Source: Loigolactobacillus iwatensis (GTDB lineage: Bacteria; Bacillota; Bacilli; Lactobacillales; Lactobacillaceae). Taken from it: a stretch of 35,484 bases of DNA. The notes under the pieces were generated by a model. The model saw only the letters and a program-made list of their open reading frames with translations, ran no database searches and was not told the DNA's origin. Position 1 is the first letter of the stretch, and the number at the start of each line of letters is the position of its first letter. The stretch spans positions 1-35,484 of the forward strand of contig NZ_RHNP01000033.1 of the NCBI RefSeq assembly GCF_003950295.1, read 5' to 3'. The position numbers and the translations under genes are program-made. Shown here piece after piece: positions 20,201 to 35,346 of the stretch.

Positions 20201-23200
20201 CAACGTACTTAGTTGTCACTACAGGTGTAATCTCCAGGTTGCCACTAATACCAACTGCTTTAACGAGCAAGTACAACGGATTGGCGGCGGCAAAATCATT
20301 CAAGCCCTGATCGCTTAATTTAACCACATAACTCCCTGGTTTTTCACTAGTAATGCCCGAAAGATCCAGGTCACCAGAACTCGTCGCAACTTCGTAATAA
20401 TTGGCGTTGGCAGTAGCGGTCCAGTCAGTGGGCACAGTATAACCAGTCGGTACGTAAACTAAATAACTAGTTGGATCCGTGCTAGTCAGGCCATCATAAA
20501 CCTTGGCCTGATTTTGAACCGTAATTGCCGTTACCTGATCGGCCACATCACTTTCGTTGACCTCTTCTTGGTAATAAACCGTGTAAGCGTTACCGGCACT
20601 AACCGTCGCTTCTGAAGCGATTGGATTAACAATCTGTGGGAAAAGCTGTGGTGTGATTACGGAACTATTCACCAAAACGTAAGTATGTCCATTCGCCACA
20701 ATCGTTGCTTGCAGCTTCGTCATCGGATCATAGGTGGTCTGGGAATCGCCAGTAAAGGTTACTGCTCCTAATTTCGTATTAGCTGGTCCCACCAAATTAT
20801 AGGTGTCTTGGACCTGGCCCGTGACAATCGTGTAAGGATAAATAAAATTAGTATAACTAGAATTAAGTACGTAAGCACCAGTAATACCAAGTGCATTGGC
20901 CACCGATGCAACGTTGGAATAGCCGCTTAAAGTAACTGCATAGTCCCCTTGCGTATACGCTGGGTCACTGGTCAAATACATTACGGATGAATCAGGTGAA
21001 CCAGCATTAGTTCCAACGTAGCCAGATGTTGTCCCAGAGTCGCCGTTTGCAACAACAGGCAGATCAAATAGGCCGCCCACCGTATTTACTGAGCCAAACT
21101 GAATTTCAAAAGTTTGCCGACCATTGTAGTCAGTCAGTTGAGTTACTGTTAGACCCGAATAAGCAACATTCCCGCTTTCCAATTCAGCAATAATGGCAGC
21201 CTTTAATGTTTCCGCCGGCGTAGGTGACTGCGTGTACTGATTGGCGGCATTCACCGTCGCAATATCAAAGCCACTAGGAATGATCACGAATTCCGTTAAA
21301 TTGGAAACTGTTAATTTACCCGCGTTATTATTCAGTAAGCGTAATTCTAAAGTTAAGCCAGAACCATCAGCGATGGTAAATGCCTGGCCTTCACTCTGAC
21401 CTTTAATGGTGACATAATAGTTGCCTGGATTAAAATGTGTTGTTGCTGTAGCTGCGGTATTGACCGTAATCGAGCCAGTCTGAACGTTGTTGCTATCAAA
21501 GGATACCGTTGGGTTGTCCGCCTTTAAAGTAGTCAAAGCGGCAGCCGTCAGAGTCACGCTATAACTGCCATCCACACCTAATTGAACGTTGGAAGTATCA
21601 AAATAAGAAATTGGAACATTGTAGACGATAGAATTCTGCCCTGTATTATCGTAAGAAACCGTCCAATCAGTTGGTGCAGTTAAACCGTCATTTAACGTCA
21701 CACTCAGCGTTGTTGGTAATTTTGTTGTGGCTGTTGCGGCCCCGACAATCACCTTGTTATTGACCATAATCGTAAAGTTGCCGGCGACCACTGCATCTGC
21801 CGTCACGGCGTAATTTGGATTAGCGGCCTGTAGATCACTCAAGCCTTGTGCGCTTAGCGTAATTGGGTAAGTCCCAATACTTTGGCTACTGACACTGGTC
21901 AAGTCGCCAGTACTAACTGGTACATCATAAGTAAGGATTGTGGAACCGGCAGTATTACTACTATCCAGCGTCCAAGTTGTTGGTGCAGTTAAGAAACTAG
22001 GTAACGTGACCTGATAGTTAGTCGGCATATTGGTTGCGTCATTATCAAAATCTTTTGACTGCGAAACAACCTTAATTGCCTGGGAAGGTACCAGGGCCTG
22101 TTTGATGGTTAACGTTCCCGCCGTCACATCGGCCATGGTAACGTCAACGCCTGGATTGGCCGCTTGAATTTCCGCCAAACCAGCCGCCGTTAGCGTAATC
22201 TTGTAAACTCCCGCATCCTGCGCCACCGCCGTTAAATCAATATCGCCAGATGCCCCAGCAATCATCGTATTATTTGTGCCGGATAAGTACCAAGAAGCCG
22301 GCGCCTTTAAATTAGAAGACAAAATAACCTGATACGTCACTGGTGTACCCGGCTGATCATTATAAGTTTTGCTGACATTGCCAATAGTAATGTTGGTTGC
22401 GACTGCAGCCGTTACCACCCGGGCCATTTTAGCCGCGGTGGCCACCACACTAGTAGCTGTTGCGGCGGAAGAAATCAATGTTTGGTTGGCGCCACTGGCC
22501 ACTAAATTATTGGCCAAATTAATTGCCGCCACTTGCTCGGCGTTATCTGTGGTTGCCGGGCTAGGAACGACTACCGTGGCCCCGCTAACATTTGCCACAT
22601 CACTAGCCGTAACGGCGGCAGTATCGCTAGCTGCACTACTGCTGGTACTTGAAGCGTTAGTTGGGTCATTTGAGACCGCTGAACTCTCGGCCGAACTGGC
22701 CGTTGAGCCAGCAACACTGCTTGGTGGCGTGGCCGTACTGGAAGCAGCCGGCGTAGTTGATGAAATACCTGAAACCAAGCTTTGATCATTAGTTGAGCCG
22801 CCACTTTGCTTTAGCGCGGAACTAGCAACACTGCTGGCGGCCGAACTCGTTGCATTGGAACCAGTAGTTCGACTGCTAGTTGTAGTCGCACTGGCGGCAC
22901 TACTTTCATTTACCGCTGAACTGGCCGTACTTTTAGCGGTGCTCTGCTTAGCAGCGGAACTGGCCGCGCTGGAAGCTGTACTTGCCTTTGCCTCAGTGCT
23001 GGTCGCACTGGTAGCGCTGCTCTGCGTGGTCGTAGAACTGGCTGCACTAGAAACCGTACTCTGACTGGCCGCCGAACTGGTGGCACCTGCCTTCAACGCC
23101 ACTGTTTTAGCGGTTAATTGATTGGCCGCAGAAGTCGCCGTCTCAGTGCTGGCCGAAGTTGCGTCACTAGTGTTACTAGTCGCCGCTTCCGTATTAGTTG

Positions 23201-23333
23201 TCAAACCAAATAGAAGCGCTGAACCCAGCGTTGCCATAGAAATACCAGTATACAACCAACGTTTGCCAGCCTTATACATTTTATAGTGTTGCTTAACATC
23301 CCGTTGCGCATTTAATAATCGACGAATTTTCAT
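17283..23333 (-). CDS. Giant cell-wall-anchored adhesin (KxYKxGKxW signal, MBG-like and MucBP-like repeats, LPxTG)
   Basis: A 2016-residue surface protein. A KxYKxGKxW signal peptide (K18-M-Y20-K21-A-G23-K24-R-W26) is followed by a hydrophobic segment with likely cleavage near A50. Residues about 51-300 are Ser/Ala/Thr-rich, likely a glycosylated stalk. Next come MBG-like repeats of about 100 residues, each ending like GVYKITLTAAGLAEIQAANP. A MucBP-type unit (TKYVDATTGAEI... ITVTYQYSQVG) follows. Then come four copies of a Pro/Thr module starting YVVTPPNGG, alternating with MucBP-like TVTVNLVDxTGKAVTNS units. Near the end are Gly-Asn-Pro-Gly-Ser repeats, LPQTG (1983-1987), a membrane segment and RKKKE, so sortase A should anchor it. 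Probable binding to mucus or host or plant glycans is inferred. Confidence 0.95.
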   Translation of the reverse strand: MKIRRLLNAQRDVKQHYKMYKAGKRWLYTGISMATLGSALLFGLTTNTEAATSNTSDATSASTETATSAANQLTAKTVALKAGATSSAASQSTVSSAASSTTTQSSATSATSTEAKASTASSAASSAAKQSTAKSTASSAVNESSAASATTTSSRTTGSNATSSAASSVASSALKQSGGSTNDQSLVSGISSTTPAASSTATPPSSVAGSTASSAESSAVSNDPTNASSTSSSAASDTAAVTASDVANVSGATVVVPSPATTDNAEQVAAINLANNLVASGANQTLISSAATATSVVATAAKMARVVTAAVATNITIGNVSKTYNDQPGTPVTYQVILSSNLKAPASWYLSGTNNTMIAGASGDIDLTAVAQDAGVYKITLTAAGLAEIQAANPGVDVTMADVTAGTLTIKQALVPSQAIKVVSQSKDFDNDATNMPTNYQVTLPSFLTAPTTWTLDSSNTAGSTILTYDVPVSTGDLTSVSSQSIGTYPITLSAQGLSDLQAANPNYAVTADAVVAGNFTIMVNNKVIVGAATATTKLPTTLSVTLNDGLTAPTDWTVSYDNTGQNSIVYNVPISYFDTSNVQLGVDGSYSVTLTAAALTTLKADNPTVSFDSNNVQTGSITVNTAATATTHFNPGNYYVTIKGQSEGQAFTIADGSGLTLELRLLNNNAGKLTVSNLTEFVIIPSGFDIATVNAANQYTQSPTPAETLKAAIIAELESGNVAYSGLTVTQLTDYNGRQTFEIQFGSVNTVGGLFDLPVVANGDSGTTSGYVGTNAGSPDSSVMYLTSDPAYTQGDYAVTLSGYSNVASVANALGITGAYVLNSSYTNFIYPYTIVTGQVQDTYNLVGPANTKLGAVTFTGDSQTTYDPMTKLQATIVANGHTYVLVNSSVITPQLFPQIVNPIASEATVSAGNAYTVYYQEEVNESDVADQVTAITVQNQAKVYDGLTSTDPTSYLVYVPTGYTVPTDWTATANANYYEVATSSGDLDLSGITSEKPGSYVVKLSDQGLNDFAAANPLYLLVKAVGISGNLEITPVVTTKYVDATTGAEIKTASVDDTIYENGAAYKTSAAVIAGYVLTGLPTNASGTIGGENITVTYQYSQVGDYVVTPPNGGTSTTTPYQTDPDNPSTVTTPTNDPSNPIIPYVPGYTPTGPDGTALTPVDPNDPEAGYTPPTPTSPTADTEISYTADTQTVTVNLVDETGKAVTNSAGKSSYTLTGKTGTAVDFSSVGKVVNGYVLQTDGTSTALDYDGDDSTNQTVTLVYAQVGGYVVTPPNGGTPTTTPYQTDPNDPSTVTTPTNDPSNPVIPYVPGYTPTGPDGTALTPVDPDDPEAGYTPPTPTSPTADTEISYTADTQTVTVNLVDGTGKAVTNSAGKSSYTLTGKTGTAVDFSSVGKVVNGYVLQTDGTSTALDYDGNDSTNQTVTLVYAQVGGYVVTPPNGGKPTTTPYQTDPNDPSTVTTPTNDPSNPVIPYVPGYTPTGPDGTALTPVDPNDPEAGYTPPTPTSPTADTQISYTADTQTVTVNLVDEAGKAVTNSAGKSSYTLTGKTGTAVDFSSVGKVVDGYVLKNDGTSKELDYDGDDSTNQTVTLVYAQVGGYVVTPPNGGKPTTTPYQTDPNDPSTVTTPTNDPSNPVIPYVPGYTPTGPDGTALTPVDPNDPEAGYTPPTPTSPTADTQISYTANTQSATVSYVDDTTGKTLIVDNLTGVSGGTSSYLTTDRVNSYLLAGYTLVSNDYPGSQFIFDSDGATTQSYLVHLVHATSTATESKTVNQTVHYQYSDGTTAAADVTDSVTFTRTATTDKVTGNTTYTDWTAENGDDSFSAKVSPDITGYTPDQKQVAAVVGVTTADSDATVTVTYAKNDATAPGNPGSAGSSTAPGNPGSAASSATPGNPGSAGSSTAPGNPGSATSSTAPGTPGTAATSTAAGAATPTDLANVTQPAMTTEQTAIANRTNVSAKSLTQAQAAQAPRTKANAALGVAKLPQTGAANESFLALIGAFLVALFAPMVALRKKKE
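17581..17745 (-). repeat. 36-bp repeats encoding the Gly-Asn-Pro-Gly-Ser wall-spanning region
   Basis: About four to five imperfect in-frame copies encode variants of PGNPGSAGSSTA, just before the LPQTG sorting region. Such low-complexity repeats span the peptidoglycan and change copy number readily. Confidence 0.85.
18290..20012 (-). repeat. 492-bp tandem repeats inside the adhesin gene
   Basis: The same segment returns at 492-bp spacing (for example GTTGGTGACG near 18313, 18805, 19297 and 19789), equal to 164 residues. There are four copies of the YVVTPPNGG...ISYTA part and three of the MucBP-like linker. Copies differ at only a few sites, so recent duplication or gene conversion is likely. 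Confidence 0.9.
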
Positions 23334-23438
23334 TATTCACTCTCCTTACTTAATTTACTATTTTCTTGAGTGCCCGCTAATTAGTTCCAATCCAAAATTA
23401 TTTTCAAAAAACTAATGCCGCCTACAGTCTAACTACAA

Positions 23439-23906
23439 TTAGGCCCCTGGGTTAGGCTGGGACCAAGAACGCAGTTGCAACATCCACTGAATTTGGTATT
23501 TATCGGTGAACATCCCCAGTTTGGCGCCCCAGCCCTGATCAGCCAAAGGCATATCGATTTTGATGGTTGGCTCACGCATTAGGCGGTCGTACAGAGCCTG
23601 TGCAGTCGCCGATTTCTGAGCATCATCGCTATCAATATCAAGCAATAGACGGGTACTGTTGGTCAAATGCTGATTTTGTTCAAAGTTGTCCGCCGCGTAA
23701 AGCCACTCACCTAAAATGGTAAATGCCGCGTGCATCGTTAACTGGGAAAAATCCACCCCACTTGGAACCTGCATGGCTTGCGCCGCCGCGGCCGTTACCG
23801 GTAGACGAACAATATTCTGGGCATCAAAAACGGTTTGATAATAAGCCAGTGCTTCCTTCGTATTAGCAAAAGTTAAATATGGATAAATTGCGCTGTGAGC
23901 CGTCAT
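23439..23906 (-). CDS. VOC-superfamily PhnB/YjdN-like protein
   Basis: A 155-residue protein of the glyoxalase/VOC fold, PhnB-like branch: YPYLTFANTKEALAYYQTVFDA at the N terminus, a MHAAFTILGEWLYAADN middle, and WGAKLGMFTDKYQIQWML at the C terminus. These proteins are small cytosolic dimers with mostly unknown substrates. Two adjacent ATGs exist. I use the second because GGAGGG then lies seven bases upstream. It is a single-gene unit with its own upstream palindrome at 23961-23990. Confidence 0.88.
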   Translation of the reverse strand: MTAHSAIYPYLTFANTKEALAYYQTVFDAQNIVRLPVTAAAAQAMQVPSGVDFSQLTMHAAFTILGEWLYAADNFEQNQHLTNSTRLLLDIDSDDAQKSATAQALYDRLMREPTIKIDMPLADQGWGAKLGMFTDKYQIQWMLQLRSWSQPNPGA

Positions 23907-23960
23907 CATAATCCCTCCATCACTGGCAGTTCATGCTGTTACACTGCCTTTTCAACTACG

Positions 23961-23990
23961 TTTACATTAAATTGATCAAGTAAATGTAAA
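23961..23990. promoter_or_regulatory. 30-bp near-palindromic operator upstream of the VOC gene
   Basis: TTTACATT and AATGTAAA arms flank a central TTGATCAA; 13 of 15 base pairs match. It lies about 55-85 bp upstream of the start and may overlap the promoter, as expected for a repressor or activator site. The regulator is not identifiable here. Confidence 0.6.
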
Positions 23991-24412
23991 ACCATTTTTT
24001 AATCACAACTAACTAAAATAGCCCTCATTAAAATCTATTATAGTCCCACTCCTAAATAAAAAAAATCAAGTTTTCAGTGACTTTCTTTTGTCTTTTGACA
24101 CTTTTTCAAGGCAAGCCTTTCTATGTCTGAATCAGTGTTGCTTATGCAAGTATACCGCTTACATACTAATAGGGACACAGCAAAAATAAATTTACCGGTC
24201 CCTGTTTCATTGACACATCTAGCGTGTTTCTTAACTATTTTTATTAAAATAGTGGTGGGAGTGGTGGAAAAAGCGGTTAGGTTCTACTCCGCAATTGGGG
24301 ATTATTATTGGCTTCGCTGACGATGTCGATCGAACTAAGATGAACCGAAGTCCGAATCGCAACCTACCTAGGAATGGTATTAGTAACCGTATTTTTCAAC
24401 GCTTGGTCAAAA
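23991..24412. other. Gene-free stretch with the left copy of a 98-bp inverted repeat
   Basis: A TATAAT (minus strand, near 24037-24042) may serve the VOC gene. Short open frames here lack ribosome binding sites. The main content is the repeat copy at 24267-24364. Confidence 0.5.
24267..24364 (+). repeat. Left copy of the 98-bp dispersed/inverted repeat
   Basis: It matches 28261-28358 in inverted orientation with about 10 mismatches in 98 bp by eye. The first 41 bp, beginning GAAAAAGCGGTTAGG, are identical. The two copies bracket the replication-gene cassette. Confidence 0.85.
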
Positions 24413-24676
24413 TTAGTCTTCTTGCGCCCCTAACATTTTTAAAACAGCTTGCGCGTTGGCCTGATTCAGGCATAGAAAACGAACAAATTCTAGAAAATTC
24501 AGCCTATCACTTTGACGGTACCACAGCTGACCAAGCCGCCCTAGCCTTTCATCTGGATACAGCTTTCGATCTAAGTAATCTTTGGGGCACCAGGCTGAGC
24601 TTTGTGGGCTTGTCATTAATGTCCCCGACGCCACACGATTGCTAGGTGCAACCTTATTAGTTTCTGTTTCTGCCAT
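24413..24676 (-). CDS. Small protein of unknown function in the replication cassette
   Basis: The 87-residue protein is not recognised. It is supported by a strong AAGGAGG nine bases before the ATG and by its place downstream of the Phd-like gene on the same strand. The N-terminal 30 residues are polar and Ser/Thr-rich. The C-terminal half (LGQLWYRQSDRLNFLEFVRFL, then QAVLKMLGAQ) looks like amphipathic helices. There is no signal peptide or membrane segment. It could be a small phage-type accessory protein. No function can be assigned. Confidence 0.55.
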   Translation of the reverse strand: MAETETNKVAPSNRVASGTLMTSPQSSAWCPKDYLDRKLYPDERLGRLGQLWYRQSDRLNFLEFVRFLCLNQANAQAVLKMLGAQED

Positions 24677-24752
24677 GGCTTAGAACCTCCTTCTAGGATC
24701 GATACATTTTGCAGTAGTTATGCAATTAATTCCTTAATTGACATTTCATCCC

Positions 24753-24935
24753 TTACAGTTTCAATTTTTCACCTAGCAAATTCTGTAGTTCCGCCTGCCA
24801 GTGATGGGCCGCCAGCAAAACGACCACGTCACCGGTACGCGTGTTGCGAATTAGCAGGCTGCCGCTGTTCCGGTCCACCTCGCGGACTAGCCGGTTGAGC
24901 TGCGTTTTGGCCTCCGTCACGGTTAATTCTTGCAT
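24753..24935 (-). CDS. Phd/YefM-like antitoxin without a partner toxin
   Basis: A 60-residue protein with the N-terminal pattern of Phd/YefM antitoxins (MQELTVTEAKTQLNRLVREV) followed by strands LLIRNTRTGDVVVLLA and a helical C terminus. Such proteins bind their own promoter and neutralise Doc or YoeB/RelE toxins. No toxin gene of this kind follows. The next gene (24413-24676) does not resemble one, although it sits in the usual toxin position. The start is fixed by AGGAGGTG in repeat unit A1. It could act only as a regulator or as an antitoxin in trans. Confidence 0.7.
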   Translation of the reverse strand: MQELTVTEAKTQLNRLVREVDRNSGSLLIRNTRTGDVVVLLAAHHWQAELQNLLGEKLKL

Positions 24936-24983
24936 GAAATCACCTCCTAGCCTTTTAGGTCTATTTTGTGCAAGCACAAAATC

Positions 24984-25037
24984 CTATTTACGGATGATGT
25001 CCATTCTCCTAGTGCAAAGCTCGCACACTCGAAACAT
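24984..25037 (-). CDS. Tiny CxxC peptide 2 (17 residues)
   Basis: The peptide MFRVCELCTRRMDIIRK has a CELC motif in a basic context. It has a near-ideal AGGAGGTG site from repeat unit A2 and shares its first 12 residues with the peptide at 25144-25233. It sits between the helicase and antitoxin genes on the same strand. It may be a real microprotein, a leader peptide, or a by-product of unit duplication. Translation is not proven. Confidence 0.4.
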   Translation of the reverse strand: MFRVCELCTRRMDIIRK

Positions 25038-25098
25038 GGCACCTCCTAGCCTTTTAGGTCTATTTTGTGCAAGCACAAAATCCTATTTACGGATGATG

Positions 25099-25198
25099 GC
25101 CACTAGCGCAACAAGTATTGTTAGCAACTTAGAACCGTTGCCTTTATTTGCTTACGTTGTCCATAGCAGTTGCCAAGCAAGCTTGGACTGCTAGTGGC
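25099..25198. mobile_element. About 100-bp insert with 8-bp terminal inverted repeats, inside the repeat array
   Basis: GCCACTAG (25099-25106) and CTAGTGGC (25191-25198) are perfect inverted ends of a segment that separates unit A2 from B2; at the equivalent A1-B1 junction only two bases intervene. An inner CCAAGC-AA-GCTTGG hairpin is present. It looks like a MITE-like insertion. No clear target-site duplication is visible. Confidence 0.4.
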
Positions 25199-25233
25199 AT
25201 TCTCCTAGTGCAAAGTTCGCACACTCGAAACAT
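25144..25233 (-). CDS. Tiny CxxC peptide 1 (29 residues)
   Basis: The peptide begins MFRVCELCTRRM, identical to peptide 2, and then reads into the 100-bp insert (PLAVQACLATAMDNVSK), gaining a third cysteine. An AGGAGGTG site from unit A3 lies at normal spacing. It follows the helicase gene by about 57 bp. The insert has therefore exchanged the C-terminal part of a duplicated microORF. Translation is plausible but unproven. Confidence 0.4.
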   Translation of the reverse strand: MFRVCELCTRRMPLAVQACLATAMDNVSK

Positions 25234-25290
25234 GGCACCTCCTAGCCTTTTAGGTCTATTTTGTACAACTCACACCTGCCAGCCCCTCAC

Positions 25291-26574
25291 TTATTTAACC
25301 CTATTTTCCAGCTCCTCCCCGTGTTGGGGTAAAAAGATCATCTGCCGGGGGAGAAACAAAAAGCTGAGCTCGGCCAGGCTGCCAGAGCGATTTTTCTTAA
25401 ACAATAAGTTCACGTAGCGCTCGGTCTGGCGCTCTTCGGCCTGATTGGGGCAGTAAAGAAAGGCCACCACGTTGGAATCCTGCTCGATACTGCCGGATTC
25501 GCGTAAATCTGCCAGCTGCGGCGTTTTGTCTGGCCGTTTTTCTAGCTCACGATTTAGCTGGGAAAATAGCACAATCGGGATATCCAGCTCGTTGGTTAAC
25601 AGTTTTAATTCCCGGGTGATCTGCTCAATTTCCAGACGGCGATCACTAGAGCGGGCCTGCACTCGTTCCAAACTAGTGATTTGCAAATAATCAATCACCG
25701 CAAAATACTTACCCTTTGGCGCCCGCCGCGCGTTATCGCGAATCACTTTGATGATTTGTGGCAAAACTAAAATCTTATCGTGGAGATTCATTTTTTGTTT
25801 GATCACGGTGGGCACAATTTTTTTAACGCTGGCTTTTTCGTTGCCGGTCAAAACCCCCGCTGGATTGCTAAACTTGTTGACTGGAATGCCCGTGTGGTAC
25901 GAAACCGTGCGGTAAAAATTATCTTCGCCGGTCATTTCTAGGGAAAATAAATCAGCCACCACTTGTGGATCTGTCCGTAAAGCGCTCTGAATTAAATTAA
26001 GGCCAAACGCTGATTTACCAACTCCCGGCCGGGCGCCGATTGTCCACAAAACACCACCGTGTAGGCCATTGCCCAAAACAGAATCGACGTCCGCAAAAGT
26101 TTTAATGCCCGTTGGCCGCGGATTGTCCAAATAGTGCAGCAAATCCGCCCCGTAATCGGATAATGGTTTAGTGGGCAACGCAGGCAAATTCATGTCGTGA
26201 AGTTCTTGGCCTAACTGCAAAACGAAATCCAAATTTTCCACACTGGGGTATTTCGTGTATTCACTGGCCCGGGCCTGAATTTCACCCTGCAAATACCAAA
26301 AGTGCAGGCCGTGGACCGCATCGTTAAAACTGGCCTCACTAACTTTGGCACTGCGCATTTCCTGCCACTGCTGCTCGTCTAATTCAGCCGGGAAAGTGGC
26401 CAAAAAGCGCGTCTGAATTTCGTTAGCACTTTTAAACTCACCACGATTGTCCAAAATAAAACGCAGCAGCGTCCGGTAATGTTCAGCTCCCAGCCACTTG
26501 GGTTGAATTAGTTTCGTTTTAATCACTTCTGGATGGAGCAACAAATAGGCGCAAATCTGAATTTCAAACATCAT
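25291..26574 (-). CDS. Phage-type replicative DNA helicase (DnaB-like)
   Basis: A 427-residue hexameric-type helicase that unwinds DNA at a fork. The N-terminal domain (1-110) is DnaB-like but diverged. The RecA-like domain has Walker A GARPGVGKS (180-188), SLEMTGED, Walker B VIDYLQIT (293-300), FSQLNRELEKRP (337-348) and LRESGSIEQDSN (357-368), all core DnaB motifs. It differs enough from a chromosomal DnaB that a phage or plasmid-type copy is likely. The start overlaps the upstream loader gene by 11 bp, so the pair is coupled. No other phage genes follow. Confidence 0.93.
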   Translation of the reverse strand: MMFEIQICAYLLLHPEVIKTKLIQPKWLGAEHYRTLLRFILDNRGEFKSANEIQTRFLATFPAELDEQQWQEMRSAKVSEASFNDAVHGLHFWYLQGEIQARASEYTKYPSVENLDFVLQLGQELHDMNLPALPTKPLSDYGADLLHYLDNPRPTGIKTFADVDSVLGNGLHGGVLWTIGARPGVGKSAFGLNLIQSALRTDPQVVADLFSLEMTGEDNFYRTVSYHTGIPVNKFSNPAGVLTGNEKASVKKIVPTVIKQKMNLHDKILVLPQIIKVIRDNARRAPKGKYFAVIDYLQITSLERVQARSSDRRLEIEQITRELKLLTNELDIPIVLFSQLNRELEKRPDKTPQLADLRESGSIEQDSNVVAFLYCPNQAEERQTERYVNLLFKKNRSGSLAELSFLFLPRQMIFLPQHGEELENRVK

Positions 26575-27604
26575 TTAAGGCGGCCTCCACTTCTTTTTGG
26601 CTAAAATTGGCGTGTTCAACTTCAATCACCCGCATGATTCTACTTAAATCACCGTTATTTTGCTGAATGATTAACTTTAAATACTCCTGACGACTGTGCT
26701 GGATCATTTTCGGTTTGGCGCCGTTACTAGGTTGAACGGGCAATTCGTTACAGTATTGGGCAAATTTGGCCCCGCAAATAGTTAACGGCCGAATGTAGGC
26801 GTGAAAATCGGTATTAGCCCATTGCTGCTGTTTGTACTGAATGACTCTTTTGATCAACGCAGGCGAATGACCGTTGCGCAACTGAATTAAAAGCGGCTGA
26901 ATATTTTCAATGGCGACACCAAAATTTTTGCCGGTGAGTTGATTAAAGTCCCGCAGTAATTTTAATAGCACTTGCTTTTCCGTTGCCGTAATTTCTAGAG
27001 CATCCCACTGGGCCTGTTCCTGCAACTTAAGCAGCCGCTGCCGTCTCAAGGCCGCCTGCTTTTCCACCGCTAGTAACTGCTGGTAAGTTGGGGTTGATGC
27101 GTTAGTGGCCGAATTGGCCATTGCCCCGGACGTTGAATTTAAGCCTAGCCGAGTTGTTGGATTAAACCTTGCGACTGCTTTTTCTCCAGCAATAGTGTTA
27201 CTTTGAAAATCAGCTTTCCCCCCAGTTGTTTCAGCGACTTGAAAACCTGCCTTCGCCCCGGCCATTGCGGCGGTCCCCTGCTTTTCGGGGATAACGTAAC
27301 GTTGCCAATCCAGGATTTGTAAGTGTTGTTCGGCCGTCCAACAAACTAATTTGGCGGCGATTAAACCCGCTAATGTCGCTTCCAGGTACTCGGACCGATA
27401 GCTGTGACAAAAGTGGCGGATCTGCGCCAATTGAATGGGTTCGCTTTTTTTTAAATAGATTTCACCATGATCATTTACCTTGGCCGCCGCAAATAACAGT
27501 TCCTGAAATAAGAAATAGTAACTCTTTCCTTGACTGAAGTTGGTACTTCTAAATAGGTATTGAATTTTAGGACTGTTTAAAAAGTTATTTGGTAGTTGAA
27601 TCAT
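26564..27604 (-). CDS. Phage-type replisome organiser / helicase loader (DnaD-like, Phg_2220_C-like domain)
   Basis: A 346-residue protein. Residues 1-105 resemble phage replication-initiation N-terminal domains (winged-helix type). Residues 110-175 are a low-complexity Ala/Gly/Thr linker. Residues about 210-288 fit the conserved phage C-terminal domain Phg_2220_C (LLRDFNQLTGKNF...HAYIRPLTICGAKFAQYCNEL). The extreme C terminus (EYLKLIIQQNNGDL) is helical. Such proteins bind the origin and load the helicase encoded directly downstream. AGAGG precedes the ATG. An iteron-like dyad (27714-27757) lies 110 bp upstream. Confidence 0.85.
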   Translation of the reverse strand: MIQLPNNFLNSPKIQYLFRSTNFSQGKSYYFLFQELLFAAAKVNDHGEIYLKKSEPIQLAQIRHFCHSYRSEYLEATLAGLIAAKLVCWTAEQHLQILDWQRYVIPEKQGTAAMAGAKAGFQVAETTGGKADFQSNTIAGEKAVARFNPTTRLGLNSTSGAMANSATNASTPTYQQLLAVEKQAALRRQRLLKLQEQAQWDALEITATEKQVLLKLLRDFNQLTGKNFGVAIENIQPLLIQLRNGHSPALIKRVIQYKQQQWANTDFHAYIRPLTICGAKFAQYCNELPVQPSNGAKPKMIQHSRQEYLKLIIQQNNGDLSRIMRVIEVEHANFSQKEVEAALNDV

Positions 27605-27713
27605 CTTCTTAAACCTCTTTTTTAAATTATTTTTTTAAACCTAACAGAACTAATAACAATTTAGCAGCCTATTTTGTGACCCAAATTGACCAAATTTCCG
27701 CCCAAAAAGCGTT

Positions 27714-27757
27714 TTTTTGTAAACTTTTTGTAAACTTTACAAAAACTTTACAAAAAG
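27714..27757. promoter_or_regulatory. Four-unit iteron-like dyad, candidate origin or operator
   Basis: Four contiguous 11-bp units: two TTTTTGTAAAC in direct order (27714-27724, 27725-27735), then two inverted units TTTACAAAAAC (27736-27746) and TTTACAAAAAG (27747-27757). The 11-bp period places sites on one DNA face. Its place upstream of a loader-helicase pair fits an initiator-binding origin or an autoregulatory operator. Confidence 0.6.
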
Positions 27758-28071
27758 TTTTGTTCACTATTTCGTTTTAGTAAAAAGTCATTCATTGATT
27801 TTCCATGATCGCTTATCCTTCACAACGAGTCATGATCAGGCAATTCAACACGCCAAATAAGTACCGGCCAATCGGCTTATTTGCCATTGCTGCCAGCTGT
27901 GCTCCTTAGACTAGTTTTCAATAATCCACACCAATCCAGCAGTGGCTGCTTCCCGAGATTCGCCGCCATTTTTAGCCGCACTTCATAATCTTCAAAGTTT
28001 CTTTACAATTATCAGCGAAATTAGTGCTATTATTATTTAAATAATCAAACCATAAATTTAGCGCCGACCAA

Positions 28072-28147
28072 ATACGTTTGAAAAAGCAGCTTCCGATGCT
28101 TTCCCGGACAAATTTAGTTTAAACGTGTTTGAAAAAAGCAGCTTCTT
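28072..28147 (+). repeat. Direct repeats of a GTTTGAAAAAGCAGCTTC-type motif
   Basis: Copies near 28073 and 28127 share CGTTTGAAAAAGCAGCTTC or the same with one extra A. The GTGTTTGAAAAAGC core recurs inverted at the outer edge of the right 98-bp repeat (28351-28364) and, in diverged form, at 34786-34826. Confidence 0.65.
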
Positions 28148-28260
28148 GCGGTGACTGAGATGAACTTAGTTGCAAGCAGTTATTGGCTTTATAACTGTGT
28201 CCCTTGGCTTTTGCCACAAGAATGGCCATCGTCCGTAGCATCAGGATTATTAGCGTTTTG

Positions 28261-28358
28261 GGCTGCGCTTCGGACTTCGATTCATCTTAGTCCGATCGCC
28301 ATCGTAAGCGCGGCTAGTAATAATCCCCAATTGCGGAGTAGAACCTAACCGCTTTTTC
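28261..28358 (-). repeat. Right copy of the 98-bp inverted repeat
   Basis: This is the inverted partner of 24267-24364 (about 90 percent identity by eye). With it, the copy frames a 4.1-kb cassette of replication and small genes. Confidence 0.85.
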
Positions 28359-28390
28359 AAACACTCTAGATCAACGAAAGAGGGTCGCTT

Positions 28391-29581
28391 GTGAGAAGAC
28401 GTAAACAAAAAAAACGGATGGGTAAATGGAAATGGGTCCTCATAATTGTGTTGCTGGCGCTTATTGGCGTCGCTGTTTACGCAGGGGTGGCTTACTACAA
28501 GGTTCAGCAAACCGCCAATGATGTTTATTCCAATGCCGATTCGGCTAGCAAATCAGCCAGCCAGCAAATTAAGGCCAAAAAGCCAATCTCGATCCTACTA
28601 TTAGGTATCGATACTGGTTCCGATGGTCGCACCGATAAAGGTCGTTCCGACACAATGATGGTCGCGACGATCAATCCGAAAACCAAAAAGACAACTTTAA
28701 TGAGTATTCCCCGGGATACCTTAGCTTCAATGAAGGCTGATGGCGAAAGCTCGATTCAAAAGATTAACGCCGCCTACCAAATTGGCGGTTCAACCACGGC
28801 CAAGAATACCGTTAAAAATTTACTTAACGTGCCAATTAACTATTACTTAACGATTAACATGGGCGGCATGAAGGATCTGGTCAACGCAGTCGGCGGCGTC
28901 ACCGTCACTAGCAAGTACACCTTTAACTTCAACGGCATCACAATCACTAAAGGCACCCACCACTTAAACGGCAAACAGGCACTCACCTTCGCCCGCATGC
29001 GCTATCAGGATCCTTTAGGCGATTACGGCCGGCAATTACGCCAGCAACAAGTGATCAAGGCTGTTGCAAATAAATTGTTATCCGCCAACAGTTTGACCAA
29101 TTATCAAAAAGTTTTGAACATCGTCAAAAAGAACATTCGAACCGACATTAGTTTTGGCGACATGACGGCCATGGCCAAAAGCTACCGGGCAGCTGGTGAC
29201 ACGATTAAGTCCGATCAACTGCAAGGCCAAGACGCCACGATTAACGGTGGCTCTTACCAAATTGCTTCTACTAAGGAACTTAATCGCGTCTCCAAAAAGT
29301 TGCGCAACCAATTAGGGCTGAGCGCGGCCAAGGTGGCCAACAAGGAGGTTTCCATGAATAAAGCGAACCCTTACTTTGATGGCGTCAACTACACCACCTA
29401 CAATGTGGAAACAGACACCAGCGAAACCGACGCCACCGGCACTGAAGGTACTGAATCTAGTGGGACTAACGAAACTACAGGAACCACAGGAACGCAAGGT
29501 AACACCCAGCAGAGCAGCAGTGGTCCTACTGCAACCTGGTCGCAAAATAACAGCGCCAACCAGCAAGGCGCTAACTGGTAG
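28391..29581 (+). CDS. LytR-CpsA-Psr (LCP) family glycopolymer ligase
   Basis: LCP enzymes attach teichoic acids or capsule to peptidoglycan on the outer membrane face. The 396-residue protein has a basic N terminus and one membrane helix (about 13-33). The LCP domain follows from about 65: SILLLGIDTGSDGRTDKGRSDTM, LMSIPRDT and, near residue 200, LTFARMRYQDPLGDYGRQLRQQQ, with the conserved Arg and Asp residues. The last 55 residues are a Ser/Thr/Gly/Gln-rich tail. The start is GTG with AGAGGG upstream. An in-frame ATG ten codons later is an alternative. It could attach the polymer made by the 1-12 kb locus. Confidence 0.95.
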   Translation: MRRRKQKKRMGKWKWVLIIVLLALIGVAVYAGVAYYKVQQTANDVYSNADSASKSASQQIKAKKPISILLLGIDTGSDGRTDKGRSDTMMVATINPKTKKTTLMSIPRDTLASMKADGESSIQKINAAYQIGGSTTAKNTVKNLLNVPINYYLTINMGGMKDLVNAVGGVTVTSKYTFNFNGITITKGTHHLNGKQALTFARMRYQDPLGDYGRQLRQQQVIKAVANKLLSANSLTNYQKVLNIVKKNIRTDISFGDMTAMAKSYRAAGDTIKSDQLQGQDATINGGSYQIASTKELNRVSKKLRNQLGLSAAKVANKEVSMNKANPYFDGVNYTTYNVETDTSETDATGTEGTESSGTNETTGTTGTQGNTQQSSSGPTATWSQNNSANQQGANW

Positions 29582-29642
29582 TGCGTTCTACCGGGACATA
29601 AAACTGACTAGCAACTGTTTTTCATTGAAAGAAAGTAAATTC

Positions 29643-29688
29643 AAAAGGCGTCCACCTGACTAAATTAGCCGGGCGGACGCCTTTTTTT
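29643..29688 (+). terminator. Intrinsic terminator of the LCP gene
   Basis: AAAAGGCGTCC (29643-29653) pairs with GGACGCC plus TTTT (29675-29685), followed by a T tract. It can also serve the convergent AbiE locus in reverse (AAAA side). Confidence 0.9.
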
Positions 29689-29696
29689 GGTGAATT

Positions 29697-29885
29697 TTAT
29701 TTGGCAAATGACTGGAAAATCTTGATCCTGCGACCGGTAAACGTCTTATTTGCTGGTTTGGGTCGGGTTTGGAAAAACGGAAGTCTAGTATCCTCCGAGC
29801 ACTCCCTGGGATCAACATTATTAAGCTTAGCCTGTTTTTTCACATAGGCCTTCATTTGCATGGCGTTCGTAAAACGGTCCTTCAT
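29697..29885 (-). pseudogene. Truncated remnant of abiEii (type IV toxin nucleotidyltransferase)
   Basis: The 62-residue frame starts MKDRFTNAMQMKAYVKKQAKLNNVDPRE, matching the N terminus of AbiEii toxins (full length about 250-300 residues). It then loses similarity and ends after a basic tail. A different reading frame just after codon 28 offers VLGGY, which resembles the expected next residues, so a frameshift plus deletion is likely. The nucleotidyltransferase core is absent. It keeps the ATGA overlap with abiEi and a GGAG site, showing it derives from a normal abiEi-abiEii operon. It cannot be a working toxin. Confidence 0.7.
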
Positions 29886-30475
29886 AGTAGTACTCCCATA
29901 TAAGTGCGCATTTTTTCTTCAACCTTAAGTAGCTTGGCAAAGTGCATCAGCTGAATCAGATTTCTATCTGACCGTTTAACGTAAGCCTGCATGGCATTCC
30001 GAATAATTTCATCTTGCGCAATATGTGGTGAACGAATAATATCACATAGTGTTCGCTCAATCCCATAAACCGCTACTCGATTGCCATATTCTGTCTTAAC
30101 AGTTGTAACGCCAAGCCTTCTTAGAGTTTCAATTTGCCAGTAAGGCCTAATCCTTAATTCTTCAAAATGTGGTGAGTTATAGCCTCTAGGAAAAGTCATT
30201 TCTAAAAAGTTTGGTGTTTTATCGGTCAGGTCGTACAGATGCAGTGCTGTCTCCCTACAAAAAATTCCTTTTGTAAACCGTAACTGTGCCAAGGCAAATT
30301 CATCCTCAAAAGAGGTTGGATCAATGTACACCCCCGGTCCAACGCGTTCAATTAACCCTTGTTTAACCATTCGACTTAAAATAGAAGAGACGATCCCTTC
30401 CAAAAGAGCTTGTTTGGCCGTAAAAATGCCATTGTACTTGGTTAGTAATAATTGCGCCTGGTCGGTTAACACCAT
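29882..30475 (-). CDS. abiEi: AbiEi-type antitoxin / transcriptional repressor
   Basis: A 197-residue protein with an N-terminal winged helix (TKYNGIFTAKQALLEGIVSSI, then LIERVGPGVYI) and the AbiEi C-terminal domain (FCRETALHLYDLTDKTP, NRVAVYGIERTLCDIIRSP). AbiEi represses its own promoter and counters the AbiEii toxin in the AbiE abortive-infection system. GAGGGTG precedes the ATG. The toxin gene is reduced to a stub, so this is an orphan antitoxin that may persist as a regulator or protect against related AbiEii toxins on phages and plasmids. Confidence 0.9.
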   Translation of the reverse strand: MVLTDQAQLLLTKYNGIFTAKQALLEGIVSSILSRMVKQGLIERVGPGVYIDPTSFEDEFALAQLRFTKGIFCRETALHLYDLTDKTPNFLEMTFPRGYNSPHFEELRIRPYWQIETLRRLGVTTVKTEYGNRVAVYGIERTLCDIIRSPHIAQDEIIRNAMQAYVKRSDRNLIQLMHFAKLLKVEEKMRTYMGVLL

Positions 30476-30494
30476 TCTTTCACCCTCGTTCTAT

Positions 30495-30543
30495 TGTTCC
30501 TTATATACGACATTATATCATATTTAGTTGTACATAAGGAACA
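30495..30543 (-). promoter_or_regulatory. abiE promoter with inverted-repeat operator
   Basis: TGTTCCTTAT (30495-30504) and ATAAGGAACA (30534-30543) are perfect 10-bp inverted arms that flank an extended -10 (TGATATAAT on the minus strand; hexamer 30512-30517). AbiEi proteins are known to bind paired inverted repeats in their own promoter, so this is the probable operator. Confidence 0.75.
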
Positions 30544-30595: not shown

Positions 30596-31354
30596 TTAAG
30601 AAAGCCCACAATACCGCCGTTCCCTAATCTGCATCTGTTTGCTAAGCTGCTTGTAATCACGGTCATCGAGAAACTTGTAAACCCTTTTCAAATCGACAAG
30701 GTTTTCTTTAATGGCCTTCCAATCAGGCTGCTCTAATTCAAAATCGGCCATCGTGCGGGAAAAGTAGCCGTCGTTAGGGACCGGATAACTGATGGTGACC
30801 TGATAGTCGCTAGTCATCCGCAATAGTTGCTCACTGCCTTTGCGCAGATTGAAACGCAGCCGGGCCGCCTTGTGCATCGACCGCATTATCGTTTGAGCCT
30901 TGGCCCCAACCCGCACCTGTAGGCCAGTTGTAAAAACGAGATCACTCACCGCAGCCGCCACTGGCTGAGCGTTATCAAAATGTTGCCCAACCACCCAGTA
31001 CAACTCTTTAGTCTTTTCACGACTCAGCGGCACCAATACCAAGCGTCCCATTGTGTAGGGCACTAACCGCGTTTGCCCAGTTGAACGGGCCAGCCGTTTC
31101 GAATCGCCGTAGTGAAAGCATTGCTGATTAAAATAACCCATGACTAATTTTTCGGCAGTTTCTGGACAGAAATACAGGTGCCCTTCCACCGTGACCACAA
31201 CGCTATAATACAGCTCCCCCGCGCGTTCCACCGCCGGATTCAGTTCCGCCACTAACATCGCGTTACTGCCTAACTCATTGTGCTGGTGAAAACGCGCCTG
31301 CTCGTAATACTGCGCCAAGTTCGTCACGTCAATCAGGTTCGGTAGCTTAGTCAT
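30596..31354 (-). CDS. ComK-like competence transcription factor (tentative)
   Basis: The 252-residue protein has a central segment CFHYGDSKRLARSTGQTRLVPY, then MGRLVLVPLS and YWVVGQHF. This pattern resembles ComK (FGSSxxGRKxGT, then a hydrophobic FPT-like strand, then WI-H). It is longer than Bacillus ComK (about 190 residues), mainly at the C terminus (helical, RVYKFLDDRDYKQL). If correct, it would activate DNA-uptake genes. I start at ATG 31354 (AGGGTGG upstream); two GTG codons lie just before. A DNA-binding role is inferred from similarity only. Confidence 0.5.
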   Translation of the reverse strand: MTKLPNLIDVTNLAQYYEQARFHQHNELGSNAMLVAELNPAVERAGELYYSVVVTVEGHLYFCPETAEKLVMGYFNQQCFHYGDSKRLARSTGQTRLVPYTMGRLVLVPLSREKTKELYWVVGQHFDNAQPVAAAVSDLVFTTGLQVRVGAKAQTIMRSMHKAARLRFNLRKGSEQLLRMTSDYQVTISYPVPNDGYFSRTMADFELEQPDWKAIKENLVDLKRVYKFLDDRDYKQLSKQMQIRERRYCGLS

Positions 31355-31366
31355 CCCAGCCACCAC

Positions 31367-31758: not shown

Positions 31759-32643
31759 TCAATCCGCAAGCCTTAAAAAACTTTCCGGCAGCGGCGCCGT
31801 TACCATAACTGGCGTAAAACTAAAGGGCAACAACAAACGCATTTTTGCCGAATGTAAAAATAACCGGGAATAAGCCGCGGCCTGGGGATCGTACAACGGA
31901 TCGCCTACCACAGGGTGACCTAGATAACTAAACTGCACCCGAATTTGGTGGGTCCGGCCGGTTTCTAATTGAATCGCTAACAACGATTTGGTCGGTGTTT
32001 CTTGTAAAACGCGGTAGTGCGTGACTGCGGTTAGCGCGTTCGGCCCACCAATTTGCCGTTTGCGTTTATCTAACGGATCGCGCCCAATTGGCAAATTGAT
32101 CGTACCCCTGGCCGGCAAATGTCCGTGAACCCAGGCCCGGTACTGCCGCGTGATTTTCTTACTACTAATCAAACGATTGAGAATCGGCAGCACCACCGGA
32201 TTTTTTGCAACAACAAGAGCCCCGCTAGTAGCACGATCAATTCGGTGAACCACATAGGCCGGCGACTGCAAATAAGCCGTGACGTGACTCATCAGCGTGC
32301 CCTGCTCCCCCGGCCGATTCGGGTGCGTTTTAATCCCCGCCGGCTTGTCCACCACCAATAAGTCGTCATTTTCGTACAAAACGTGCACCAAACTAGCGTC
32401 ACCGCCATGATAATCAGGCTGTGGCGTGCTGAAATCCCCCGCGTAAAAAGTTAGTAACACATCATCACCCGTTTTTACCGGTGTGTAAACAGATTGATAA
32501 CGCCCATTTATCCGGACTATGCGCCGAATTCGCAAATAATAACAAATTGTTTTCGGAATCAATAAATCACGACGCAGATACTGCTTTAACCGGTGGCCCG
32601 ACTGCGCGGCGGTCACGGTACAGTGATACTGCCATTTTTGCAT
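31759..32643 (-). CDS. RluA/RluD-family RNA pseudouridine synthase
   Basis: It isomerises uridine to pseudouridine in rRNA or tRNA. The 294-residue protein has an S4-like N-terminal part (SGHRLKQYLRRDLLIP... RRIVRINGR), VVDKPAGIKTHP (about 97-108), the catalytic motif VVHRIDRATSGALV with Asp136, and the C-terminal LETGRTHQIRVQFSYLGHPVVGDPLY. This is the standard Gram-positive RluD-like architecture. It is a monocistronic gene with its own terminator. The exact target base is not readable from sequence. Confidence 0.95.
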   Translation of the reverse strand: MQKWQYHCTVTAAQSGHRLKQYLRRDLLIPKTICYYLRIRRIVRINGRYQSVYTPVKTGDDVLLTFYAGDFSTPQPDYHGGDASLVHVLYENDDLLVVDKPAGIKTHPNRPGEQGTLMSHVTAYLQSPAYVVHRIDRATSGALVVAKNPVVLPILNRLISSKKITRQYRAWVHGHLPARGTINLPIGRDPLDKRKRQIGGPNALTAVTHYRVLQETPTKSLLAIQLETGRTHQIRVQFSYLGHPVVGDPLYDPQAAAYSRLFLHSAKMRLLLPFSFTPVMVTAPLPESFLRLAD

Positions 32644-33213: not shown

Positions 33214-33745
33214 CTAGGCACCCCCTTTCCTACTGGATTTTGATCATCACACATAGTGACCATCTCACTTTCAGATTGGATTTGCCAACCGCCTCAACTT
33301 CCTTGCTGATGTGATTATAGCATAAGAAATTCAATCAAGATACGAAATAAAATTTAAATTAATAACTCTGTTTAATAGCACAAATTTCCTACTACATAAC
33401 GGAATAACCTGCGTAAAACGGCCCCTACTTTTTTGCAATTATTGGGCCAAATTAGATTAACCTCTCACTTTTATGCCACCCATAAACTATAGTCGAAGAC
33501 ATTTTCTTGTCTTCGGCTTTCTTTATACCAATTCCGATTAAATACCCACAAATATTCAAAAAGTCTCCCCACCCAATAGCCTTTATCATTGATTTGCCGA
33601 ACAATACTTGGCCGACATTTTTCATGATTTGCTTGTCACATCTTAAAGTTAGCGTTTACATAGTTATTTTTAATTTTGTTATTCTTAAACCGTTTTCTAG
33701 CGCTAGGAAACACAATTCTGCCTTCACGGCAAAGGAGTGTTTCTG
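33214..33745. promoter_or_regulatory. Toxin promoter region and sigma-factor leader
   Basis: The left part carries the toxin 5' untranslated region and promoter (ATTATA on the plus strand at 33314-33319). CGAAGAC/GTCTTCG with a T-rich tail (33494-33522) is a plus-strand terminator-like hairpin with no obvious gene before it. The right part holds the sigma-factor leader described at 33697-33743. No other gene is supported. Confidence 0.5.
33697..33743 (+). promoter_or_regulatory. Palindrome and RBS-enclosing hairpin before the sigma-factor gene
   Basis: CTAGCGCTAG (33697-33706) is a perfect palindrome. Next GAAACAC (33707-33713) pairs with GTGTTTC (33737-33743), with inner TGCC/GGCA (33719-33722 with 33728-33731). 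The outer stem encloses the AAAGGAG ribosome binding site and ends just before the TTG start, so the RNA fold could restrict translation. Confidence 0.55.
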
Positions 33746-34306
33746 TTGACCCAAAAAACTGATTTAGAACAACAAGCCTTTTCCTGCCTCGCCGCCAATC
33801 CTGGCATCATTTACGGTGCGCTCAAGGCCGCCGGTATCTATTACTGGCATTCGGAATTCGCCGATTATTACCAAGATAGCGTCCTCGATTACGTCACTGG
33901 CTTCGTGGATTACTACCAAAGTGGTAGCCAGCTCAACCGGGAAAGTTACATCTACACCCACATTATTTGGGCAAACAAAAATCGCCGGAATAATTTTAGT
34001 AAACAACAAAATTGCTGCGTTTCTAGCGAACTACTGCAACGAACCGAAAAGCCTGACGATATGGCCGAATTTACCACCAAAGAAGCCAGCCAATTCAGTG
34101 ACCTGATTGCCACAATTCAGGCCGATGACCATTTTAACCTGCTGATGACTAGACTTAGCGAAAATGAGCGCTATTACCTCTGGCGCGCCTACCGAGCCGA
34201 TAAAAACATGGTCCAAATTGCCAAGGAGTTAGGTATTAATCGCCGCAGTGTTTACCGAATTCGCGATCGAGTTCGGCGCCAGGCTGAAAATCTGTTCAGC
34301 GATTAA
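33746..34306 (+). CDS. ComX/SigX-like alternative sigma factor
   Basis: A 186-residue protein with sigma-70-like features: a region-2-like helical part (DYVTGFVDYYQ, then SYIYTHIIWANKNRRNN) and a C-terminal region-4 helix-turn-helix (MVQIAKELGINRRSVYRIRDRVRRQ). This size and layout match ComX/SigH-like factors of lactobacilli, associated with competence genes. I prefer the TTG start at 33746, eight bases after AAAGGAG, over the GTG at 33737 that overlaps that site. Downstream lie DUF1659 and DUF2922 genes, a frequent partnership. The regulon is not visible here. Confidence 0.75.
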   Translation: MTQKTDLEQQAFSCLAANPGIIYGALKAAGIYYWHSEFADYYQDSVLDYVTGFVDYYQSGSQLNRESYIYTHIIWANKNRRNNFSKQQNCCVSSELLQRTEKPDDMAEFTTKEASQFSDLIATIQADDHFNLLMTRLSENERYYLWRAYRADKNMVQIAKELGINRRSVYRIRDRVRRQAENLFSD

Positions 34307-34388
34307 GGTCACAAATCCGGCCGCTAAATTGTTATTAGTATGTAAGGGTAAAAATGGTGGCCACCTGATTAGATCTTACAAAATATTT

Positions 34389-34554: not shown

Positions 34555-34770
34555 ATGGATGATTGGATTAAAACGAACGTTGAAATTAAGGTCACTGGAC
34601 CTGACATCGCCAACGAAGCGACACGGGTTTTTCATGACTGCAAAGAAGAAGTAACGCCAGAACAGCTAACTGGTCTTGGCAAAGTTGTTGAGAATCTCTC
34701 CGGTCAGCGTGCCAACGCCGCCGTTACCGTTTATTACCGCCGCCACGACTTTCCCGGAATTGAGGAATAG
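34555..34770 (+). CDS. DUF1659 domain protein
   Basis: A 71-residue protein with the strand-helix layout of DUF1659: KTNVEIKVTGPD, then RVFHDCKEEVTPEQLTGLGKVVENLSG, then AAVTVYYRRHDF. The family is small and of unknown function, often next to DUF2922 and sigma-factor genes in Bacilli. AGGAGG precedes the ATG. It follows the sigma gene and a long structured leader, so it is probably transcribed separately. No signal or membrane segment. Confidence 0.75.
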   Translation: MDDWIKTNVEIKVTGPDIANEATRVFHDCKEEVTPEQLTGLGKVVENLSGQRANAAVTVYYRRHDFPGIEE

Positions 34771-35100: not shown

Positions 35101-35346
35101 ATGAAACAACTTGATATGGAATTTACCAGTGAAAACGGCAAAGAGAAGCATTTGCGAATGAATTACGCTTCCCAGAATCTTGACGAAACAACTGTCAAGA
35201 CGGCAATGCAGACAATCGCCGAACTAAAAATGTTCGAAATCGATTTTGCCAACCCCTACGCCCACCCAGTTCAGGCCAGCTACACTGAACGCACAGTAAC
35301 ACCAATTTTCAGTGATAAGAAAAAGAGTGAAAAAGCGGACGCGTAA
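35101..35346 (+). CDS. DUF2922 domain protein
   Basis: An 81-residue protein fitting DUF2922: KQLDMEFTSENGKEKHLRMNYASQNLDETTVKTAMQTIAEL, the usual N-terminal hairpin plus helix of this small family, followed by a variable, Lys-rich C terminus. Its function is unknown. AAGGAGG precedes the ATG. The DUF1659-DUF2922 pair next to a ComX-like sigma factor supports a shared role or shared regulation, but nothing in the proteins shows a catalytic site. Confidence 0.75.
   Translation: MKQLDMEFTSENGKEKHLRMNYASQNLDETTVKTAMQTIAELKMFEIDFANPYAHPVQASYTERTVTPIFSDKKKSEKADA

Follow-up and report, generated by a model that had tools for sequence, protein, structure and literature searches.

A bacterial chromosome is generally assumed to replicate from a single origin, and phage replication genes are assumed to be confined to phages, plasmids and islands. 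In iteron plasmids and at the origins of secondary chromosomes, the iterons adjoin the initiator gene, and their specificity differs among co-resident replicons. Two sigma factors described in Bacilli are also pertinent. SigS of S. aureus directly activates the sroAB operon (PMC13192611), and sigma-H of L. sakei, encoded in a conserved cysS-nusG context, is an activator of com genes (PMC3364868). This study concerns a stretch of 35,484 nucleotides of Loigolactobacillus iwatensis (assembly GCF_003950295.1, contig NZ_RHNP01000033.1), hereafter the window, in which an initial annotation had singled out a 4.1-kb cassette of replication genes enclosed by 98-bp inverted repeats (24.27-28.36 kb). Comparison with related loci identifies this interval as the replication half of a larger chromosomal module, the other half of which lies at 30.6-35.4 kb of the window. 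A phage-type replication cassette was found to be a multi-copy chromosomal fixture in all eight genomes of the genus that were searched, coupled to a small sigma factor and a ComK homologue, and its copies are diversified in the manner of incompatible replicons.

Between the repeats lies a single minus-strand operon that was present as originally described and comprises a loader, a DnaB-like helicase, two micro-ORFs, a Phd-like gene and an 87-aa ORF (Table 1). Comparison of the copies revealed that the loader consists of a variable N-terminal part, of DNA-binding type, and a conserved C-terminal Phg_2220_C part; the match of its N-terminus to PF09681 (Phage_rep_org_N, E 3e-4) is under the Pfam cut-off. 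The Walker motif of the helicase, GARPGVGKSAF, is conserved. Relatives of the Phd-like protein, whose start with a ribosome site is the ATG at 24935, were found in six other fetched modules, and relatives of the 87-aa protein in seven other fetched loci. The Phd match of the former is under the Pfam cut-off, and a type II toxin-antitoxin system was rejected on this score and on the lack of a toxin match for the adjoining 87-aa protein, which had no match in Pfam, PHROG or PADLOC. No integrase, transposase or virion gene was found among the 27 distinct window ORFs scanned with Pfam, as had been noted before; a 2016-aa ORF (17283-23333) and several small ORFs were left unscanned. By homology, the operon is identified as an intact phage-type replicon with iterons, loader and DnaB helicase. 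Between the helicase and the Phd-like gene (24903-25268), a ribosome-binding leader occurs three times, and two of these leaders lead into the micro-ORFs, which begin with MFRVCELCTRRM.

The initial annotation had overlooked that the set extends beyond the operon, up to the window's right end; the window holds the full module set, split by unrelated genes. A typical module comprises a small sigma factor, a divergent protein of about 250-300 aa that we designate X, the loader, DnaB, the Phd-like protein, a protein of about 72 aa, a DUF1659 protein and a DUF2922 protein, although the small genes vary and some copies are without some of them. The Sigma70_r4 match of the window sigma (E 0.009) is under the cut-off, and its relative in locus L032 exceeds the TIGR02937 cut-off. 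The replicon occurs in 17 copies across the eight genomes of this beer-spoilage genus, with helicases at least 48% identical to that of the window. Besides these 17 helicases, the genomes contain the ordinary DnaB, two prophage-type helicases (G005:C50 and G001:C1) and two fragments. Both X and sigma share a contig with the replicon in 13 of the 17 copies (a count made by hand); two copies are cut by contig ends. When compared with 12 phage or prophage sequences, the helicases of 15 loci formed one clade with 100/100 support, several long branches being flagged, and the best helicases listed from phages, plasmids and viral contigs are only 39-40% identical over the protein. The window DNA had no near match in plasmids. 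Selection on the module genes is purifying: dN/dS could be computed for 13 of 18 gene pairs and was 0.04-0.33, synonymous sites being near saturation in most pairs. A decayed replicon copy, consisting of a helicase fragment with a stop and a small gene, was also observed (L136:8970-9710, G003:C3).

The copy on contig NZ_RHNQ01000026.1 of what is apparently L. backii JCM 18665 (G001), comprises the interval with both repeats and a helicase 100% identical to that of the window. Between the two species, dN/dS is uninformative because the cassette is 100% identical. The window positions 22303-30967 are without substitution, with a single-base gap at 28407; the sequences then differ by about 3% up to 32813 and are identical from 32814 to the contig end, whereas farther stretches are about 92-95% identical. 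This pattern looks like a recent exchange tract between the two species, and the ends of the tract (22303 and 30967) do not coincide with the repeats.

With regard to X, single sequences are mostly under the Pfam ComK cut-off, the copy of genome G006 being above it. A profile of 51 X sequences nevertheless matched a profile of 25 ComK sequences, fetched from Bacilli genomes with the Pfam model, with a probability of 98.6 and an E-value of 9.4e-16 over 148 columns. The X sequences of the genus alone gave a probability of 93.0 (E 3.3e-7), against 0.1 for control profiles of sigma and the loader. On this profile evidence, X is identified as a ComK homologue over the ComK domain. It was found in 102 of the 397 Lactobacillaceae genomes searched, belonging to 24 of 40 genera. 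Outside the genus, a sigma gene lies within 1 kb of X in 24 of the 34 fetched neighbourhoods, and none of the 34 has a loader or helicase beside X. The sigma-X couple is a widespread Lactobacillaceae pair, and the replicon beside it was seen only in Loigolactobacillus. Searching the PDB by sequence with profiles of the loader and of X yielded nothing of use, and alignment found no relative of the sigma factor in viral contigs (one peptide pattern only). Among 25 fetched ComK loci of other Bacilli, four (L170, L171, L173 and L174) have such a sigma gene in the flank, L174 also having a DUF2922 gene; the ComK-sigma pairing may be older than the Lactobacillaceae. A ComK homologue of the Loigolactobacillus type stands alone at L113:3342-4154, on a contig of another genus with ParA and resolvase genes, and is 100% identical to one on the Lactiplantibacillus plantarum plasmid NZ_CP035561.1 (12649-13458).

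The two halves of the module are linked by a shared predicted promoter. In the window, the two sites lie 6.6 kb apart, and in seven modules a second copy of the loader promoter matches the first at 32-39 of 41-43 positions, against 22-25 matches for the next best site of each locus and 24-27 in 380 kb of background. In four of these seven modules (L032, L035, L037 and L039), the second promoter precedes a gene recognised as DUF1659. An unbiased comparison of ten modules excluded L133 (contig end), L031 (no sigma side), and L036 and L030 (duplicates of L035 and of the window). Seven of the ten, the window included (24 of 28), reached 23-27 of 28 matches, the maximum in 1000 shuffles, which keep base composition only, being 21. 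The region taken for L033 began too late for its promoter, and this module was positive separately (32/42), which brings the recurring promoter to eight of the ten. One promoter variant is common to four related modules; the window, L032 and L035 each have a variant of their own at both places. Across the ten modules, no promoter of the loader type was found before X or sigma. The loader promoter thus recurs, in most modules, beside sigma or before the SroA-like gene, and the most economical explanation is that the sigma factor of each module drives both the SroA-like operon and the loader-helicase operon. About 46 nt before the sigma start, seven loci (L033, L037, L038, L039, L044, L045 and L133) have a conserved hairpin leader whose loop contains the ribosome-binding site. 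Its stem changes on both sides (GGATCAC/GTGATCC, GGACCAC/GTGGTCC and GGGTCACA/TGTGACCC), and four of these hairpins, folded as RNA, gave z values of -1.6 to -2.6. The hairpin could switch the translation of sigma, or it could serve as an operator in the DNA.

The iteron-like dyad that had been noticed upstream of the loader proved to be real, with arms at 27714-27734 and 27736-27756. Within 450 nt upstream of the loader, a 9-mer taken from the dyad has seven near-matches, a number equalled by one of 100 shuffles (mean 4.0). The same test was applied to 14 loader-upstream regions, two of which are identical (the window and L030), leaving 13 distinct regions; in six of them, the window included, the repeat count was equalled by at most one of 100 shuffles. 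Helically phased repeats adjoining the initiator gene, as in iteron-type replicons, are accordingly found in the window and in five more of the 13 regions. The spacing elsewhere is about 21 bp in L038 and 44 bp in L133, and the motifs are mostly copy-specific. Palindromic repeats seen by eye before the loaders of L035, L033 and L045 were not above shuffles and were not counted. The loaders diverge in the N-domain and not in the C-domain. Those of co-resident copies are only 20-39% identical in their N-domains, and between L039 and L045 the N-domain is 35% identical, as opposed to 86% for the C-domain and 82% for the helicase. The distances of X, sigma and the loader N-domain track one another (r 0.88-0.92), which partly reflects phylogeny, given that helicase and loader also reach 0.95. 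As the N-domains of co-resident loaders are so divergent, the copies should not cross-fire.

We consider that the module is, with somewhat better than even probability, a chromosomal origin of phage ancestry that fires conditionally, under sigma control. A phage-type replication cassette would have been captured once and would then have radiated within the genus. Some signal would cause the sigma factor, perhaps together with the ComK homologue, to turn on the loader-helicase operon; the variable N-domain of the loader would bind its own iterons, and the conserved C-domain would load the cognate DnaB ring, after which the host primase and polymerase would begin replication locally in the chromosome. 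The benefit may be the host's, in the form of a conditional extra origin and a gene-dosage boost, or the module's own. A bolder version, which we regard as possible rather than probable, is that one chromosome harbours a family of secondary origins, each with its own iterons, loader, DnaB and sigma/ComK switch, and that stress or a competence-like state causes local over-replication, which would raise the dosage of the regulators in a feedback loop.

Several observations weigh against the proposal of a sigma-controlled origin. With regard to the promoter, the site in L033, L038 and L044 immediately follows sigma, but the next gene was not recognised as DUF1659, and L040 and L045 are without a clear second promoter, the 22/28 matches of L045 resting on an A/T-rich stretch. 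The L039 relative matches the SroA profile weakly, scoring 22.1 bits where the cut-off is 80, and the replicon copies L031 and L135 have no sigma or X alongside. With regard to the iterons, four of the 13 regions were not above shuffles and three were marginal, and L133, a copy co-resident with L037, contains the motifs of L037 and L038 four to five times. Finally, the sampled stretches of the complete genome G004 show a single sign change of GC skew, at about 1.56 Mb. The L039 copy, at 1.66 Mb, shows none, so that no regular firing is recorded there. If the origin fires, it would do so rarely or on demand.

Among the alternatives, a selfish mobile replicon survives best, although we judge it rather unlikely. 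Such a replicon would pass through an episomal or phage-helped stage, and recombination or borrowed enzymes would integrate it. Its lifecycle would be switched by its own sigma factor and ComK homologue, and the divergence of iterons and loaders would serve to avoid incompatibility. This explanation draws on the positions of the copies, which are mostly not syntenic, so that the copies have changed place. Among 104 cross-genome pairs of module neighbourhoods, 95 have no flanking gene family in common, four have one, and five have two or more, four of these five representing one site (L035, L036 and L034/L134). In contrast, all 15 pairs of neighbourhoods of the LytR-CpsA-Psr (LCP) gene from six species have at least three common families, LCP included. 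The count covers 16 module loci, including short contigs and L034/L134, possibly two halves of one copy. In a comparison of L039 with three related genomes, the DNA matches were confined to the 5.5-kb module (9238-14770), apart from scattered gene-family or repeat matches. Searches for an empty site gave none: the flanks of L039 are not conserved, and in a sister genome the flanking genes of L032 had no match among the rows listed, which held dispersed repeats and replicon genes only. The decayed copy and the presence of an X relative on plasmids would also suit a selfish element. What such an element would need is not seen, however: neighbourhoods read by eye showed no integrase, transposase, relaxase or packaging gene common to the copies. 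No plasmid or phage record with the replicon was found, and the idea that known plasmids or phages carry the complete cassette was rejected on the helicase identities and the plasmid search given above. The sigma-ComK pair is also common in chromosomes where no replicon accompanies it. A satellite of the phage-inducible chromosomal island (PICI) type is likewise not supported, as no integrase is present among the ORFs scanned and the flanking repeats are inverted and dispersed rather than direct att repeats. The suggestion of a minimal replicative element in the initial annotation held insofar as an iteron array accompanies the loader and helicase; its ends were wrong, it covered half a module, and no excision or mobilisation was found.

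We regard as distinctly improbable that the loader and helicase are domesticated proteins acting in trans, in repair, in fork restart or on incoming DNA in a competence-like state, with iterons that only autoregulate the operon. The ComK homology of X and the intact com operons of the genus (comGA and comEA in 8/8 each) are compatible with such a role, but the diversified iterons and loader N-domains would be needless for a general function in trans. Control of the module by the competence box was also rejected, as no good site for the box derived from comGA and comEA precedes the loader, X or sigma gene in the window. This likely competence promoter box, TGCGTATATTAATA or TGCGTAGTTTATTA, was observed upstream of comGA or comEA in the Loigolactobacillus com operons L177-L191 (not in L176), and also at L039:17888, before a methyltransferase-like ORF.

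A decayed prophage, of which the replication module was left after the rest had been lost, was suggested initially and is very unlikely. Loader and helicase are indeed of phage type, but the ORFs are intact and under purifying selection, 13 of the 17 copies have the gene set in common, sigma, X and DUF genes included, and the helicases form a clade separate from those of phages, the true prophage-type helicases of the genus sitting elsewhere (L041 and L043). Integrase, virion or packaging genes, or their remains, were not found beside the replication genes among the window ORFs scanned, and the neighbourhoods, which were read by eye with ORFs partly profile-scanned, comprise ordinary chromosomal rather than virion genes; a prophage, whether intact or decayed, was therefore rejected.

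The inverted repeat was confirmed, with arms of 106 nt (24259-24364 and 28261-28366) that are 89% complementary. The initial annotation had itself cautioned that the repeat might be an unrelated dispersed element lying on both sides of the operon, and a search of the same genome bore this out, with at least 41 matches (40 of 112 first-look candidates were scored), an outcome that the annotation had named as a refutation. An alignment of eight copies revealed a modular non-coding element, several copies of which have the ends GTTTGAAAAAGC...GCTTTTTCAAAC. The repeats flanking the operon are best read as incidental and not as its ends: although two inverted copies flank the operon, likewise in L. 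backii, a unit bounded and moved by them is hardly credible, since the repeat is dispersed, the left copy is truncated, the exchange tract with L. backii ends elsewhere and half of the module lies outside.

The genes that split the module in this lineage, and the coordinates of all features, are listed in Table 1. The fetched LCP neighbourhoods of six other species (9-19 kb) contain no cassette. The AbiEi-type gene has a 62-aa neighbour (29697-30475 for both), and AbiEii was not recognised, this neighbour having been scanned with PADLOC only. A match to Rfam rli28, a Listeria sRNA, lies at 33143-33329 on the minus strand (51 bits; gathering score 45). Farther to the left, a LicD-family gene (4307-5131) and nucleotidyltransferase, EamA transporter and choline-kinase genes (13404-16931) constitute a lic-like set, presumably indicating phosphocholine on a surface polysaccharide. 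A lone ThsB-type TIR-domain gene (12928-13335) lies within the polysaccharide cluster.

Table 1. Features of the replication module and its neighbourhood, in window coordinates.
Feature	Position	Strand	Evidence
Partial repeat copy (left arm), first part of element only	24259..24364	+	alignment of copies
87-aa protein, conserved in module	24413..24676	-	relatives in other fetched loci
Phd-like protein	24753..24977	-	PF02604 21.5 bits (E 2e-4), cut-off 29.8
Micro-ORF 2	24984..25037	-	same repeated leader as micro-ORF 1
Micro-ORF 1	25144..25233	-	preceded by repeated ribosome-binding leader
DnaB-family replicative helicase	25291..26574	-	DnaB_C E 2.1e-54; phrog_19 E 2.4e-51
Loader/initiator, replisome-organiser type	26564..27604	-	PF09524 Phg_2220_C E 1.4e-11; phrog_428 replication initiation protein E 2.9e-11
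Loader promoter (predicted)	27649..27681	-	24/28 identical to site beside sigma gene
Iteron array, 11-bp units (two direct, two inverted), proposed origin	27710..27760	unstranded	dyad and shuffle test
Complete repeat copy (right arm)	28122..28366	-	alignment of copies
LCP gene, interposed	28391..29581	+	PF03816 E 5.1e-49
AbiEi-type gene, interposed	29882..30475	-	PF13338; PADLOC AbiEi E 6.4e-63
X, ComK homologue	30596..31366	-	aligns with X of other modules; single-sequence Pfam ComK E 0.023 (weak)
Pseudouridine synthase, interposed	31759..32643	-	PF00849 E 3.2e-32
Small sigma-70-type factor	33737..34306	+	aligns with sigma of other modules, best E 1.8e-18
Matching promoter (predicted), directly after sigma gene and before DUF1659/SroA-like gene	34307..34339	+	promoter matrix
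DUF1659/SroA-like small protein	34555..34770	+	43-86% to DUF1659-type relatives in other modules; own Pfam match weak, E 0.031
DUF2922 small protein	35101..35346	+	PF11148 76.9 bits, cut-off 25.5

No published description of a ComK/sigma locus with a replicon in lactobacilli, or of the sigma-ComK pair of Lactobacillaceae, was found in open-licence PMC text. The module provides a setting in which this widespread pair can be studied and, should it fire on demand, would offer conditional chromosomal origins and initiator-iteron specificity in a natural system that is open to testing. Phages of Lacticaseibacillus (J-1, PL-1, Lc-Nu and others) have a DnaB helicase of the same family, with 39% identity over 95-97% of the query, and a loader of the phage replisome-organiser type, whereas the helicases of the present loci form a separate clade, are not located in prophages and have sigma and ComK-like genes as partners. 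Similarly, X is homologous to Bacillales ComK, but is about 250-300 aa long, compared with about 155-225 aa in the fetched ComK sequences. The combination of a sigma factor, a DUF1659/SroA-like gene and a shared promoter resembles the SigS-SroAB system of S. aureus (PMC13192611); here, the SroA match is weak, and the module sigma also appears to drive replication genes. Sigma-H of L. sakei is, like the module sigma, a small sigma-70 factor in a non-sporulating lactobacillus, but the module sigma lies at a different locus (PMC3364868), and the com-type promoter box was not found before the module genes. PICI-type islands are likewise small and carry regulation and replication genes without structural genes; they are described as having 7-20 kb and an integrase (PMC13376191), in contrast to the 5.5-kb unit described here, in which no integrase or att repeats were found. 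Unlike iteron plasmids and the origins of secondary chromosomes, with no partition genes noticed beside it, the module lies inside the chromosome and encodes its own DnaB.

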